34,037 bases of DNA from a virus: IMG/VR virus record IMGVR_UViG_3300047510_003083, positions 1 to 34,037 of that record. One strand, given 5' to 3'. This document shows positions 8,327-22,845 of the stretch, in pieces. Every line of letters begins with the position of its first letter. Within the stretch, counting starts at the first letter, position 1. Position numbers and translations under genes: made by a program. A model generated the notes under the pieces. It did not search any database. It was not told the DNA's origin and saw only the letters and a program-made list of their open reading frames with translations.

Positions 8327-8574
8327 CTGACATCATCATCCCCAAAGGTAGTCCTTTTGTTCACTTTGACAGGATGGCATGGCCCATTCCAGGAGGCCGA
8401 CTGCGTGACCTAGAACACACGCTCAGGTATGCGCGAAAGGATTACTGCTTTGACATGCAAGAGCGATTGCTACTTGCTGCTGTCGCAAACGCTTACATCC
8501 AGCTTGTTTGGCAGACGCAGAAGCGCCGCAATGAAATCGCTGCCAACCTATTCACCGCTGCCCAGAATGACTGA
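8323..8574 (+). CDS. Hypothetical protein of GC-rich segment
   Basis: An 83-residue protein with helical residues 25-75 (RDLEHTLRYARKDYCFDMQERLLLAAVANAYIQLVW). It overlaps the upstream gene by 4 nt, and its stop overlaps the ATG of the Lar-like gene (ATGACTGA at 8567-8574). Helical, aromatic and soluble. No function assigned. Confidence 0.7.
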   Translation: MTDIIIPKGSPFVHFDRMAWPIPGGRLRDLEHTLRYARKDYCFDMQERLLLAAVANAYIQLVWQTQKRRNEIAANLFTAAQND

Positions 8575-9103
8575 CCTACTGCCATGCCCCTTCTGCGGCT
8601 CCAGCAATTTGCGCTACGAGTTCTTCGGATCCCAGGGCTACATCGAGTGCAACGAGTGCGGCACCGAGGGGCCGTGCGATGAGCGTGCTGCCGATCCGAT
8701 CTGTGACGACGAGGCTGCCTACAACGCTTGGAACCGCCGCGCCGCCCTGGCCCAGCCCGAGCCGCAGGGGCCGACGGATGCTGATCATCGCCGGCCAGTA
8801 TTACTCCGCCCAGAAGGACGTCGGCATCCTGCAGGGCATGGGCTTCAACCTGGTGTGCATCCTGCTGAATGTGCCGCGCCAGGTGGTCTACGACCGCGTG
8901 CTGAAGCGGGGCACCGGCAGCTGGAACGAGAACACCTAGAGGAGTTACTGAAGACGTACTGCGACGCACGACGGGTGTTCTACTTTGAGCACGCTGCTGG
9001 CGATAGCGATCAAGAAGACCGTAAAGCCGCAGCGATCTGGGGTCTTCGCGCCGCCCTCGCCCGCTACGCCCGCCCCGCCATCAAGCCGGCGCCGCAGCCA
9101 TGA
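8567..9103 (+). CDS. Lar-like zinc-ribbon protein, chimeric with internal insertion
   Basis: The first ~65 residues are a textbook Lar-type zinc ribbon: LPCPFCGS..., IECNECGTEG..., then D..AAYNAWNRR. Lar-family proteins are small phage/prophage proteins first known for easing type I restriction. Residues ~71-124 (8778-8939) are translated in a frame that looks unnatural (Arg/Pro/His-rich), because that DNA encodes a better protein in another frame. The last ~55 residues return to a natural sequence, the EELxxLL...ALARYARPAIKP module also present at 2-481. So a module protein seems to have been split by a 162-nt in-phase insertion. Whether the chimera is functional is unclear; the Lar domain probably is. 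Confidence 0.65.
   Translation: MTDLLPCPFCGSSNLRYEFFGSQGYIECNECGTEGPCDERAADPICDDEAAYNAWNRRAALAQPEPQGPTDADHRRPVLLRPEGRRHPAGHGLQPGVHPAECAAPGGLRPRAEAGHRQLEREHLEELLKTYCDARRVFYFEHAAGDSDQEDRKAAAIWGLRAALARYARPAIKPAPQP
8778..8939 (+). CDS. Inserted ORF, nucleotide-kinase-like fragment
   Basis: A 53-residue frame inside the Lar-like gene, shifted relative to it. Its codons are strongly G/C-ending, and the peptide is natural (GQYYSAQKDVGILQ...; LVCILLNVPRQVVYDRVLKRG). The ILLNVPRxVxYxRVLxRG segment resembles the lid-proximal strand-helix of small P-loop kinases (compare xVPxExxxxRxxxR), so it may be a fragment of such an enzyme; no P-loop remains. It ends at TAG exactly where the host module resumes. 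It could be a gene remnant, a domain insertion or an overprinted gene. Confidence 0.45.
   Translation: MLIIAGQYYSAQKDVGILQGMGFNLVCILLNVPRQVVYDRVLKRGTGSWNENT
9064..9081 (+). repeat. 18-bp exact dispersed repeat, copy 2
   Basis: Identical to 133-150 and in the equivalent position of the same protein module (YARPAI). See copy 1. Confidence 0.75.
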
Positions 9104-9390: not shown

Positions 9391-9419
9391 TTGCGGAAAG
9401 TGCCGATCGGTGCTAAGCT
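9391..9419 (+). promoter_or_regulatory. Promoter TTGCGG-N17-TAAGCT (extended -10)
   Basis: TTGCGG (9391-9396), an exact 17-nt spacer and TAAGCT (9414-9419) preceded by TGC. The spacer holds the palindrome CCGATCGG (9402-9409), which could be an operator. Predicted start is about 9426, 18 nt before the ATG of the frameshift gene. Confidence 0.6.
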
Positions 9420-9443: not shown

Positions 9444-9602
9444 ATGGAAATGGACACCGCTGCAATCATCTTCATCACCACGGTGGCAGTTGGAGCGATC
9501 GACAAAATCATCGAGCGGTTTTATCCGAACTCAAAAGTGAATAACGTGATTGATTTGGTGTTGCGCTTTCTTGGTACCATTCCACCATCGGGAAAGCCCT
9601 GA
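9444..9602 (+). CDS. Small single-pass membrane protein, zero-frame product
   Basis: A 52-residue protein. Residues 5-20 (TAAIIFITTVAVGAID) form a short hydrophobic segment, followed by a basic amphipathic part and a second hydrophobic patch (VIDLVLRFLGTIPP). It ends at TGA 9600-9602, directly after the heptamer GGGAAAG (9590-9596). Most ribosomes would stop here; a fraction could shift -1 and make the extended 162-residue product. The start follows the promoter at 9391. Membrane anchor or holin-like peptide are possible roles (inference). Confidence 0.7.
   Translation: MEMDTAAIIFITTVAVGAIDKIIERFYPNSKVNNVIDLVLRFLGTIPPSGKP
9590..9596 (+). promoter_or_regulatory. Candidate -1 ribosomal frameshift site GGGAAAG
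   Basis: In the frame of the gene at 9444 the site reads tcG GGA AAG ccc tga, which fits the X XXY YYZ rule and equals the slippery heptamer of the lambda G/GT tail gene. The zero-frame stop comes one codon later. A downstream stem AGGGCC (9614-9619)/GGCCCT (9638-9643), or an alternative GCCCT (9596-9600)/AGGGC (9614-9618), could stimulate slipping. Confidence 0.65.
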
Positions 9603-9931
9603 AGCCAGATCCGAGGGCCGAGCAATTTGAACAGCTTGGCCCTGGTGGTTTGGCATCTGGTAAATCAACTACAGTTACGCTAATTGCGATTGGCGGACCT
9701 AGCACTCAAAATAAAGTTGATCGACTGATTAACGAACAACTTACACCAGCTCGTGTAAGTCAAGCAGTTGATCAATGGCATGAAACACAACCGTCAGACA
9801 TTCCACCACCTGAAATAATTAATCATCCAATTGACCCAGCTGTGCAAACTGGCGAGAGTCAATTACTTGGTGGGGCGATGGAGATCAAGGCTCCATGGCG
9901 AAATCAAGACGAAGGCGAGAAAGCTGATTAG
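9596..9931 (+). CDS. -1 frame extension of the membrane protein, soluble domain
   Basis: This frame has no ATG or GTG start: the only initiator is TTG at 9650, with no convincing Shine-Dalgarno site, and the frame is natural-looking from 9602 onward (KPDPRAEQFEQLGPGG...). Entered by a -1 shift at 9590-9596, it adds 111 residues to the 51 read in frame zero. Visible parts are a Gly/Ser segment, a short hydrophobic strand (TVTLIAIGGPS), a helix (NKVDRLINEQLTPARVSQAVDQW), a Pro-rich linker and a polar tail. The alternatives are independent TTG initiation, or a frame break from mutation or sequencing. No domain recognised. Confidence 0.55.
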   Translation, partial: ALKPDPRAEQFEQLGPGGLASGKSTTVTLIAIGGPSTQNKVDRLINEQLTPARVSQAVDQWHETQPSDIPPPEIINHPIDPAVQTGESQLLGGAMEIKAPWRNQDEGEKAD

Positions 9932-9944
9932 TTCTTGAAATTGG

Positions 9945-10265
9945 TTGACCAAGGGCGGCCAAGGCTGCGATACTTGTAGCAATTGCTTTTTTCATGTGGC
10001 AGAAGAACAAAGCTTTGTGACCGGCTCCGACGACCTTGCTGTTCGTATTGCAAACAGCCTTGGGCTGGAAGGTATCAGCGTAAACTCGCTTTCTATTCAT
10101 ATCAGTGCTGAAGAGGTGATATGTGCCGAGTGTAGATTTTTTCCTACAAGGCAGCAACTAGAGCAGGCTGCGAAAGAAATCGCAACGCTGCAAGGAAGTG
10201 GGGTAATAATGGGGGACGTTGAGCTTTTCTATTCCAGCATTCTTGAGGAAAACGACGAAGAATGA
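9945..10265 (+). CDS. Cys-pair hypothetical protein
   Basis: A 106-residue protein. An in-frame stop at 9936 leaves TTG at 9945 as the likely start; a GTG near residue 17 would remove the first Cys pair. Two CxxC pairs (CDTCSNC near residues 8-14 and CAECRFF near residue 60) probably bind one zinc. It overlaps the next gene's ATG at 10262 by 4 nt. Function unknown. Confidence 0.6.
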   Translation: MTKGGQGCDTCSNCFFHVAEEQSFVTGSDDLAVRIANSLGLEGISVNSLSIHISAEEVICAECRFFPTRQQLEQAAKEIATLQGSGVIMGDVELFYSSILEENDEE

Positions 10266-20569: not shown

Positions 20570-21766
20570 CTAAGGCTTGAAGCGATGCACCCACATTCCG
20601 CCCTTCTTGCGATCAAGGCCCTTGTTTTTGTAAATTGAAGCTGCGTTGACCGCACTTGCCCCAGCCACACAGGCGGCATAAATTACATTCTCACTGTAAA
20701 ATCCATCGTAAAATTTAACAGTTTTCTTATAGCTCCACGTATCCGCCATAAATTCAGACCAAGGGTCTTTTACATCAAGTGAGTAAGACTTGTTGATTGG
20801 GTTCTGCATAAGCCCATCAAGAATAATTACATGCCCAGACCTAGTGAACCAGCCATGCGTGATAAGAAGTTCCCCAGCTTTCAACCATTCGTAAACCTTC
20901 TCTAGTGAACCATTACCATCAAAACTATAGTTAGCGTTTTTGTAAGTTCGTATAACCTTGCCCATAACCGATGGGTCGCCAGCTACCCCGCCACTAGCAA
21001 GTAACTTGCTTCTAATGCCCATAATATTTTTATCGCCAACTGCCATTGCAATACAAGCAGCTTGACAGGTAAGGCTGTCTGGCTGAGAAAGATTCATGGC
21101 CTTCACTCTGGTCTTCCACTGTGTTACGTCAGCCTTTACTGCTTTTGCTGGCGATACAGAAGGTTGCTGAACAACTAATTTTGCAACAGGCAACTGCTGA
21201 TTCATTAACTTGATCAGCTTCTCTGCATACTTTGGATCCTCTGCGTACCCCTCTTTGACCAGCGTTTTTGCCGCAGCATCCCTGTTTGCTGCGTTATTTA
21301 CGCCCTTGTAAGTCTTGAAATCTTTATACCAACGATCCACTAAATAAGTGACGGCTTCTTTTGGGCTGCTGAAATCCATATAAGTTTTATTACCTACTGC
21401 TTTCAACCCAAAGAAGTTATTTTTGCCCGACCTGGCCAGCCCCCAATCACTCTCTAGAGCCCATTGCGCAGCAACAAGTTCTGGGTATTTCGCCCCTGCC
21501 GCCATGGCCATGGCCTTGATGCTTTCCCAGGAGGTCTCAACCTCGCCGTGCTGCCCCTCTGTGGTCTTTGGCGCCGGAGCCTGGATCAATGGGGCCTTGG
21601 TTTCTACAGCCGCCTTCCAGATGCTCCTGAGATCCCCTCCGTCCTGAAGGGCCTCGGGGTCAAGCTTGTCTACTCGATCAAGCACAGCTTGCAGAAAAGC
21701 AAGATGATGCGACTTCCGAGAGTCGAAGTGGTTGACGTAATTATTTGTTGGAATTTTCTTGCTCAT
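20570..21766 (-). CDS. Bifunctional endolysin: GH73 glucosaminidase plus C39-like peptidase
   Basis: A 398-residue lysis enzyme. Residues ~78-195 are a GH73-type (FlgJ-like) N-acetylglucosaminidase, with the catalytic Glu in QWALESDWG (E105), SGKNNFFGLK and a closing YAEDPKYAEKLIKLM. A Pro/Ala linker (~196-212) leads to a papain-like C39-type peptidase domain: Cys in DSLTCQAACIAM (C234), His in RSGHVIILDG (H312) and Asp in DVKDPW (D334). Together they would cut glycan and peptide bonds of peptidoglycan. There is no signal peptide, so release depends on the membrane proteins encoded just upstream. Its start overlaps the gene at 21741-22073 by 26 nt. Confidence 0.85.
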   Translation of the reverse strand: MSKKIPTNNYVNHFDSRKSHHLAFLQAVLDRVDKLDPEALQDGGDLRSIWKAAVETKAPLIQAPAPKTTEGQHGEVETSWESIKAMAMAAGAKYPELVAAQWALESDWGLARSGKNNFFGLKAVGNKTYMDFSSPKEAVTYLVDRWYKDFKTYKGVNNAANRDAAAKTLVKEGYAEDPKYAEKLIKLMNQQLPVAKLVVQQPSVSPAKAVKADVTQWKTRVKAMNLSQPDSLTCQAACIAMAVGDKNIMGIRSKLLASGGVAGDPSVMGKVIRTYKNANYSFDGNGSLEKVYEWLKAGELLITHGWFTRSGHVIILDGLMQNPINKSYSLDVKDPWSEFMADTWSYKKTVKFYDGFYSENVIYAACVAGASAVNAASIYKNKGLDRKKGGMWVHRFKP

Positions 21767-22073
21767 TCTTCAATGCCTTATCAGCTGCAATGCGTACATC
21801 ATAGAGCCGAAACAGTGAGTCAACATCATCATCTCCCCAACTTTCGCCTGTCAGCTCTTCAAATTTTTGCTTGACCATCTGTTCAATTTCTTTGCCACTG
21901 GCTTTTCCTAATAATCTAGGCACGCGCTCGTCAAGCATTTGAAGCATGACTGGCGCATATTTTAACACTTTTGTTTGAAAAAACTTTTTTGCAACTGGTT
22001 CAACAATTGCTTTAGCAAAGCCGACACCAACAAAAAAGCAAAAGCCATTCAGTAACGAGGTGAAAGGATTCAT
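21741..22073 (-). CDS. Lysis-cassette protein with N-terminal membrane segment
   Basis: A 110-residue protein. Residues 3-27 (FTSLLNGFCFFVGVGFAKAIV) are hydrophobic and could anchor it in the inner membrane; the remainder is a charged helical cytoplasmic domain (KEIEQMVKQKFEELTGESW...). It lies between the endolysin gene and two other membrane proteins, overlapping each. Holin, antiholin or spanin-like roles are possible; the sequence does not decide. Confidence 0.65.
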   Translation of the reverse strand: MNPFTSLLNGFCFFVGVGFAKAIVEPVAKKFFQTKVLKYAPVMLQMLDERVPRLLGKASGKEIEQMVKQKFEELTGESWGDDDVDSLFRLYDVRIAADKALKNEQENSNK

Positions 22074-22582
22074 CTGCCTCTGTCAGCTAGCCTTGCTTGA
22101 TAGAGCGCTTTGCGGACTTCGTAAATACTGATACCAAGAGACTCAGCAATTTCTTTCTGAGTGCTTCCAGCTTGTCTTTTTTCGACTACGCGATCAATAA
22201 GAAGGCTATTCGCTTCTTGCTCAACTTCTTTTTCTGGCTCCGTTGGGACGACAAGCTCTTTGGCTGCAACTTGGTCAATATTTTCGCTTTTACGCAGTCT
22301 TGGGTTGTAAGTATTAAAGGCACCCCAGCAACCAGCAAGTACGCCACCCCCAGCAACTACGCCAGGGAGATTGGTTTCGATAACTGTATCGCACTGCCCC
22401 GCACTGGTTTGATAGCGAATACAGTCAACAATTTTATGCCCACTAATCATCATTGATACAATGCCAGCCGCAATTGAACCTCCAAAGGCGACGGGAGGCA
22501 TTGCTTTGGCCATCTTGCCGCGACTTCCAGTTGCAGGCGCAAGACCAGCTTGGGTTAGAACAGAGCCAATTAGGCTAATCAT
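22070..22582 (-). CDS. Membrane protein with C-terminal helix-turn-helix
   Basis: A 170-residue protein with two hydrophobic segments, about 30-47 (VAFGGSIAAGIVSMMISG) and 73-90 (LPGVVAGGGVLAGCWGAF), separated by a Cys-containing loop. An acidic linker leads to a C-terminal homeodomain-like/sigma-region-4-like HTH (VEKRQAGSTQKEIAESLGISIYEVRKALYQARL, about 130-162). Holin-like topology joined to a DNA-binding-type domain is unusual. It shares 4-nt or 1-nt overlaps with its neighbours, so it belongs to the lysis operon. Confidence 0.7.
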   Translation of the reverse strand: MISLIGSVLTQAGLAPATGSRGKMAKAMPPVAFGGSIAAGIVSMMISGHKIVDCIRYQTSAGQCDTVIETNLPGVVAGGGVLAGCWGAFNTYNPRLRKSENIDQVAAKELVVPTEPEKEVEQEANSLLIDRVVEKRQAGSTQKEIAESLGISIYEVRKALYQARLADRGR

Positions 22583-22845
22583 TACCTAACCTCTAGTTTA
22601 ATGACACGACGATCCAGTTCTTTAACTGTTTCGTCAAGCTTGGTAAAACGAACTTCAAATCCTTTTTGGTTTTCTAGGATCTGTGTAATGTTTTTCTCAA
22701 GCTGCATAAGGTGGTTTGGCAGTCGAATAATCAACCAGCCCATACCTCCAGCTGTTCCAATAACTGCAGCAGCCAATACTGCTGCAGCGGTCGCTTCCAT
22801 GACCTGAACGGTGCTGAAGCGTTTTTTCACCGGCTGATTTTCCAT
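22582..22845 (-). CDS. Holin-like/coiled-coil membrane protein
   Basis: An 87-residue protein with a short basic start, one transmembrane helix (about 17-41, AAAVLAAAVIGTAGGMGWLII), then a heptad-patterned helix to the end (LEKNITQILENQKGFEVRFTKLDETVKELDRRVIKL). One TM plus coiled coil is seen in haemolysin XhlA-type holin partners and in spanin-like proteins. It is the first gene of the lysis cassette; the terminator hairpin lies just ahead of its ATG, so expression may depend on read-through or a promoter I could not identify. Confidence 0.65.
   Translation of the reverse strand: MENQPVKKRFSTVQVMEATAAAVLAAAVIGTAGGMGWLIIRLPNHLMQLEKNITQILENQKGFEVRFTKLDETVKELDRRVIKLEVR

Follow-up and report, generated by a model that had tools for sequence, protein, structure and literature searches.

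The lambda G/GT frameshift uses the heptamer GGGAAAG, and that of the bacterial dnaX gene uses A_AAA_AAG, with a strong preference for AAG in the A site and with an RNA structure downstream. Among phages, -1 frameshifts have been described in tail chaperones (PMC5009743, PMC3091744, PMC6316719, PMC3556154) and in capsid genes (PMC7881722). Where a lysis gene has two products, these arise from alternative starts (PMC6316719): lambda S105/S107 is a dual-start pair of holin and antiholin (PMC3091744, on the lambda antiholin start), and 24.1/24.1* and 26/26* of SPP1 are dual-start holins (PMC6316719). Furthermore, in the XhlA/XhlB/XlyA arrangement of PBSX and SPP1, two small membrane proteins, one of them with a coiled coil, are encoded beside the endolysin (PMC6316719). 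Here we describe a small gene carried by a linear 34-kb IMG/VR fragment without close named relatives (34,037 nucleotides, hereafter the window), which, judging from its sequence, is almost certainly expressed by programmed -1 ribosomal frameshifting. A megablast search with the window as query returned no match among phage records.

The N part of the gene is a zero-frame ORF on the plus strand (9444-9602), translated from ATG 9444 as the 52-aa hydrophobic peptide MEMDTAAIIFITTVAVGAIDKIIERFYPNSKVNNVIDLVLRFLGTIPPSGKP, followed by a stop, and homologous to the phrog_22542-type peptides of cyanophages. An earlier note, made from the letters of the window, had described a 52-codon frame from ATG 9444 that ends in tcG GGA AAG CCC TGA, with a GGGAAAG suitably placed for a slip, and both points were confirmed: the heptamer G_GGA_AAG lies at 9590-9596 on the plus strand, in the X_XXY_YYZ phase that permits a tandem -1 slip, at a position equivalent to the heptamers of relatives, and the zero-frame TGA (9600-9602) stands one codon (CCC) past it. 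The C part occupies 9596-9931 of the same strand, in the -1 frame, and is indeed open from the slip up to TAG 9929-9931, that is 111 codons from 9596 plus the stop, and terminates in the conserved motif LQTGxSxLLGGAMEIKAPW, the window version being VQTGESQLLGGAMEIKAPW. Two products would result, of 52 residues without slippage and of 162 residues for the fusion, and the proposed outcome of two membrane forms is supported, their function excepted. The choice of start codon held only in part: ATG 9444 does open the frame, but ATG 9450 (MDTAAI...) fits better with the start of L028 (MDAAAI...), the nearest relative of the window. As the start of L028 corresponds to ATG 9450, both window forms may be two residues shorter, the short one then having 50 aa. 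The short product displays one clear and one weaker hydrophobic segment, and AlphaFold models it with moderate confidence as helices 2-26 and 33-42. For the C part, a single helix 41-64 and a disordered tail are predicted with low confidence (pLDDT 63). Shortly 3' of the gene, a terminator-like hairpin with a T-rich tail is found on the plus strand (9964-9980), one such element against 1.1 expected by chance. Upstream, on the same strand, a small CxxC zinc-ribbon-like ORF (MTDLLPCPFCGSSN...) has close behind it a second ORF that overlaps it in a different frame (MLIIAGQYYSAQKDVG...), the region being 8573-8940; this may be an ordinary overlap of genes or a further frame transition.

A search with the -1 part yielded 26 loci, and a profile of the fusion yielded 248, of which 80 were kept. 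Named cyanophages were reached by tblastn, namely S-CBS3, S-EIV1, S-CBS1 and KBS-S-2A and the T7-like S-B28, 7B11-B and WH11-B; further loci were fetched with fusion queries of the 7B11-B and WH11-B types, and most loci without the C part came from such fusion-query searches. A scan with the N part alone gave no confirmed relative, because this peptide is probably too short and too divergent for the confirmation step. The expanded set comprises 165 distinct loci with the N part, 150 of them with the C part, a count made partly by eye: the automatic test scored 145, and five loci whose -1 peptides are clearly of the family were added by eye, two of these being cut by a contig end. Codon statistics were computed on 78 distinct loci, structure and selection on 45 representatives of 85%-identity clusters. 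Without exception, the 150 loci with a C part have it in the -1 frame relative to the N part, never in the same frame; since the first two sets (the 26 loci and the 80 kept) were found through the C part, the frame statistics of those sets are conditional on its presence. The homologue search, which had been proposed beforehand, thus revealed relatives in which both frames, their -1 offset and a slippery heptamer are conserved. The contrary cases named in advance turned up rarely and in distant phages only, as a GTG restart in S-CBS2 and as a separate gene for a C-part-like domain in T4-like cyanophages.

The endolysin gene comes next, on the same strand, in 58 of the 78 distinct loci and usually overlaps the frameshift gene (by 1-44 nt); an annotated endolysin directly follows it in S-CBS1, S-CBS3, KBS-S-2A and S-CBS4. 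The gene order in S-CBS1, S-CBS3 and KBS-S-2A is tail fibre, a small ORF with transmembrane and coiled-coil segments, the frameshift gene and the endolysin. The ORF preceding the frameshift gene (phrog_26178) has a weak match to the XhlA-type 'hemolysin' family (E 0.002). In these three phages the frameshift gene is thus placed after the tail-fibre genes, not between the major tail protein and the tape measure; a tail-chaperone identity was rejected for its wrong position and unrelated sequence. T7 keeps its holin between the tail-fibre and terminase genes, and the T7-like S-B28 carries the frameshift gene between the tail-fibre and terminase small subunit genes.

The window itself is atypical. 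Its frameshift gene is located at 9.4 kb on the plus strand, among unrelated genes and far from the endolysin (20570-21766, minus strand), a glucosaminidase (PF01832) of the family that follows the frameshift gene in relatives. The description as an early accessory gene with its own promoter was right for the local setting only: most relatives keep the gene late, before the endolysin, and no sigma-70-like promoter was found at 9391. The place that the frameshift gene has in relatives, between tail genes and endolysin, is taken in the window by three small ORFs on the minus strand (21741-22845). ORF 22582-22845 combines a hydrophobic segment and a coiled coil with a weak spanin-like match, and ORF 22070-22582 has a weak HTH-like match at its C terminus; ORF 21741-22073, the first of the three, was considered as an S-CRM01 g110-like gene and failed the BLASTP test. 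The lysis cassette of the window may in part have been substituted or relocated.

Sequences similar to the C part also exist separately. Stand-alone proteins with their own start are found in S-CRM01 (g111; L107, 1042-1407), close to the endolysin of this phage, and in S-CBS2 (gp048), and both end with an (L)GG..xIxAPW-like motif. The GC_410 proteins of T4-like cyanophages (L108, L109 and L110, ~967-1365) are likewise stand-alone, carry a C-part-like helix and the tail motif and are weakly similar to the C part; their neighbourhood is variable, once beside the tail-tube gene gp19 and elsewhere beside metabolic genes. Since C-part-like domains have their own N termini elsewhere, the two parts are separable modules, joined by frameshifting in this cyanophage gene family.

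From its position, the frameshift gene probably belongs to the lysis function. By its size, its hydrophobicity and its position, the short form would most likely act as a holin or as one component of a two-part holin, and the long form would be a regulator made in a fixed ratio to it. Frameshifting could also be real and its products act outside lysis, in virion or tail assembly or in another membrane process, which we regard as possible though rather unlikely. Such a role would agree with the lack of any holin family match for the gene in Pfam or PHROGs, with the ORFs next to it in L028 and L060, which are not endolysins and look structural by eye, with the solitary C-part-like domains of T4-like cyanophages beside gp19 or metabolic genes, and with the window copy lying among plus-strand genes away from lysis genes. 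It does not agree with the overlapping endolysin directly downstream in most loci (58/78), nor with the holin position of the gene in T7-like cyanophages; moreover, in S-CBS4 and S-SRP01 the N part alone still stands directly before an endolysin or glycoside hydrolase.

The slip site is conserved in the gene family. A canonical in-phase X_XXY_YYZ heptamer is present 0-1 codon before the stop in 147 of the 150 loci with a C part. Its letters vary (AAAAAAG, CCCAAAG, CCCAAAA or GGGAAAG), whereas the pattern is kept; when the slip codons are left out of tree building, at least five changes of heptamer type are counted, and GGGAAAG has independent origins in the lineages of the window and of S-EIV1. 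The three exceptions are L028, whose GGGGAAG allows full re-pairing of the P-site tRNA only, L065, whose GCCAAAG likewise permits perfect re-pairing of one tRNA but not of the other, and S-CBS2, which has no slip site. Codon choice at the slip is restricted as well. Canonical sites in the 78 distinct loci always have AAA for a P-site Lys (56/56), CCA for Pro (12/12) and GGA for Gly (8/8); including L028, with GGG, a P-site Gly is GGA in eight of nine cases. A Gly codon one place before the P-site is GGA in 30 of 30, and the A-site codon is AAG in 76 of 78 loci. On the other hand, a Lys codon just upstream of the slip is AAA 31 times and AAG 29 times, and other positions use the full range of codons. 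Synonymous choice would produce the slip pattern by chance with a probability of about 10^-61 if the informative loci were independent (45 representatives, codon use taken from the same ORFs); as they are not, this number gives only a scale.

Loci that lack the C part lack the heptamer as well. None of the 15 loci without a C part has a slip heptamer, and the association of the two is strong (Fisher p 1.6e-14, computed on the automatic calls as they stood prior to the reassignment of five rows by eye). These loci are S-CBS4, P60, S-CBP1, S-SRP01, L180 and ten loci of a T7-like uncultured group resembling MedDCM-OCT-S37-C6 (L097, L146, L153-L155, L157, L162, L171, L179 and L182). In this group Lys-Lys is still encoded, but by AAG AAA or AAG AAG. 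With an N part but neither a C part nor slippery codons, the ten loci are a natural control for frameshifting.

These observations bear on how the second part is translated. Ribosomes could terminate at the first stop and then reinitiate (termination-reinitiation coupling), so that the second part would be a protein of its own. S-CBS2 does provide an example: its two parts are separate genes (L102, 1633-2123), and a GTG overlaps the zero-frame TAG (CCC TAG TGA; CCCTAGTGA) without a slip site. In the window, a CTG overlaps the TGA, but S-CBS3 has CTA there. Across the relatives, the first ATG, GTG or TTG of the -1 frame lies from -1 to +230 nt from the stop, usually 20-230 nt downstream, and none is conserved near the junction; in the window, where the earlier note had seen no ATG or GTG start, the first start codon is TTG 9650, 50 nt beyond the stop. 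Reinitiation would also leave unexplained why X_XXY_YYZ is kept despite changes of its letters and why the heptamer disappears with the C part, which makes it very unlikely as the general mechanism. S-CBS2 shows a natural change between frameshifting and coupled restart, in one direction or the other.

Another possibility is that the polymerase, not the ribosome, slips, and that the longer product is read from altered transcripts. In most relatives, six consecutive A do occupy the site; six-base runs are short for polymerase slippage, and loci with CCCAAAG, CCCAAAA or GGGAAAG, which lack any homopolymer of more than four bases, behave identically. The conservation of the exact reading phase and of AAG in the A site (76/78) counts against transcriptional slippage, since both matter only to tRNAs, and we therefore hold this mechanism to be highly improbable.

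Programmed ribosomal frameshifting further implies that both frames are coding, and selection acts accordingly on both. The N part, read in the zero frame, has a median dN/dS of 0.10 and the C part, read in the -1 frame, one of 0.09; the two control frames over the C part stretch give 1.6 and 2.2. In the 45 representatives, the -1 frame contains no stop, whereas the two other frames contain 146 and 250. The window is a single metagenomic fragment, so that a sequencing or assembly error or a decayed gene could have split one ORF, but the same break in about 150 distinct loci, isolate genomes included, with dN/dS of about 0.1 on both sides, already refutes this and leaves it practically no probability.

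The RNA following the heptamer appears to be structured. In the window, region 9597-9672 folds at -38.2 kcal/mol (z -6.2), none of 200 shuffles being equally stable, and this structure is among the strongest of the set. Of the two alternative hairpins proposed earlier, beginning at 9596 or 9614, a hairpin is real and its inner helix does start at 9614, but pairing begins at 9598 and the main helix at 9604. The putative stimulatory stem-loop thus occupies 9598-9660 on the plus strand, with the main helix separated from the heptamer by a 7-nt spacer and the inner helix at 9614-9643. L028 has a different helix, likewise 7 nt downstream of the heptamer (z -2.4). Among the 45 representatives, the folding z against shuffles reaches its minimum within the 80 nt that follow the heptamer directly (mean -1.9 at +0 and -1.7 at +30), the peak of structure spans +0 to +110, and upstream the mean varies between +0.3 and -0.7. 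For the AAAAAAG clade, RNAalifold found a hairpin and stability downstream, with a covariation term of ~0.

Collectively, comparison of the sequences establishes a conserved two-frame architecture with its slip site, purifying selection, a downstream structure and a location in the lysis module. Ribosomes would slip by -1 on X_XXY_YYZ directly before the zero-frame stop, aided by the RNA structure downstream and presumably at a useful rate. Most of them would make the short membrane peptide, of about 46-52 aa, and the slipping fraction a longer form, of about 100-160 aa, with the C-terminal helix and the conserved tail ending in LGGAMEIKAPW. On balance we favour the joint reading of a frameshift in a membrane-protein gene of the lysis module. 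The long form would be a partner of the short one at a ratio fixed by slip efficiency; an inhibitor or timer of hole formation would be its most plausible regulatory role, although its assignment as an antiholin-like timer is tentative. It is conceivable, if doubtful, that siphovirus-type and T7-like cyanophages set their lysis clock by frameshifting, using a holin and a C-terminally extended antiholin. If so, the holin:antiholin ratio would be fixed by the slippery site and the RNA structure and could respond to the translation conditions of the host.

Many cyanobacterial viruses carry a tiny membrane-protein gene, usually beside the endolysin gene, on which ribosomes evidently slip back by one base at a conserved site to make a second, longer protein, and this frameshift may help to time the bursting of the host. 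The gene is a concrete candidate for the poorly known cyanophage holin and may represent a novel mode of lysis timing. The frameshift lacks annotation in the public records for S-CBS1, S-CBS3, KBS-S-2A, S-EIV1 and S-B28; gp21/gp22 of S-CBS3 and gp22/gp23 of S-CBS1 are evidently one frameshifted gene each, and their annotation is corrected here. No earlier report of a frameshift in a holin-position gene of a DNA phage, or in these cyanophages, was found in the literature searched, the coverage of which leaves out many subscription journals. The phage -1 frameshifts found there serve tail chaperones and capsid proteins, whereas the present one concerns a different class of gene in widespread environmental phages. 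The mechanism is known, but the gene class, its location and its breadth appear to be new.

Among the known systems, lambda G/GT is similar in that ribosomes slip by -1 close to the 3' end of a short gene, so that a short product predominates over a C-terminally extended one in a set ratio (PMC5009743, PMC3091744), and P2 E/E+E' is a tail chaperone frameshift of the same type, on the heptamer TTTTTTG (PMC5009743, PMC3091744). Unlike lambda G/GT, the cyanophage gene has as its N part a hydrophobic peptide of 46-52 aa and is located in the lysis module, and no homology was found between them. The capsid frameshift of Privateer uses GGGAAAG, as the window does (PMC7881722). Capsid genes of the T7 10A/10B type likewise give two products with a common N terminus through a -1 slip, but these are structural capsid proteins, of unrelated sequence and position. 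The dnaX gene shares its heptamer with most relatives of the window; it encodes, however, a cellular DNA polymerase subunit, and its frameshift makes the shorter product. As for lysis genes, no homology between the frameshift gene and XhlA/XhlB/XlyA emerged, and no frameshift is known in the lysis genes of PBSX or SPP1. The dual-start holins resemble the cyanophage gene in that one lysis gene encodes two forms of a membrane protein, but their forms differ at the N terminus, through the choice of start, whereas the cyanophage forms would differ at the C terminus, through frameshifting.
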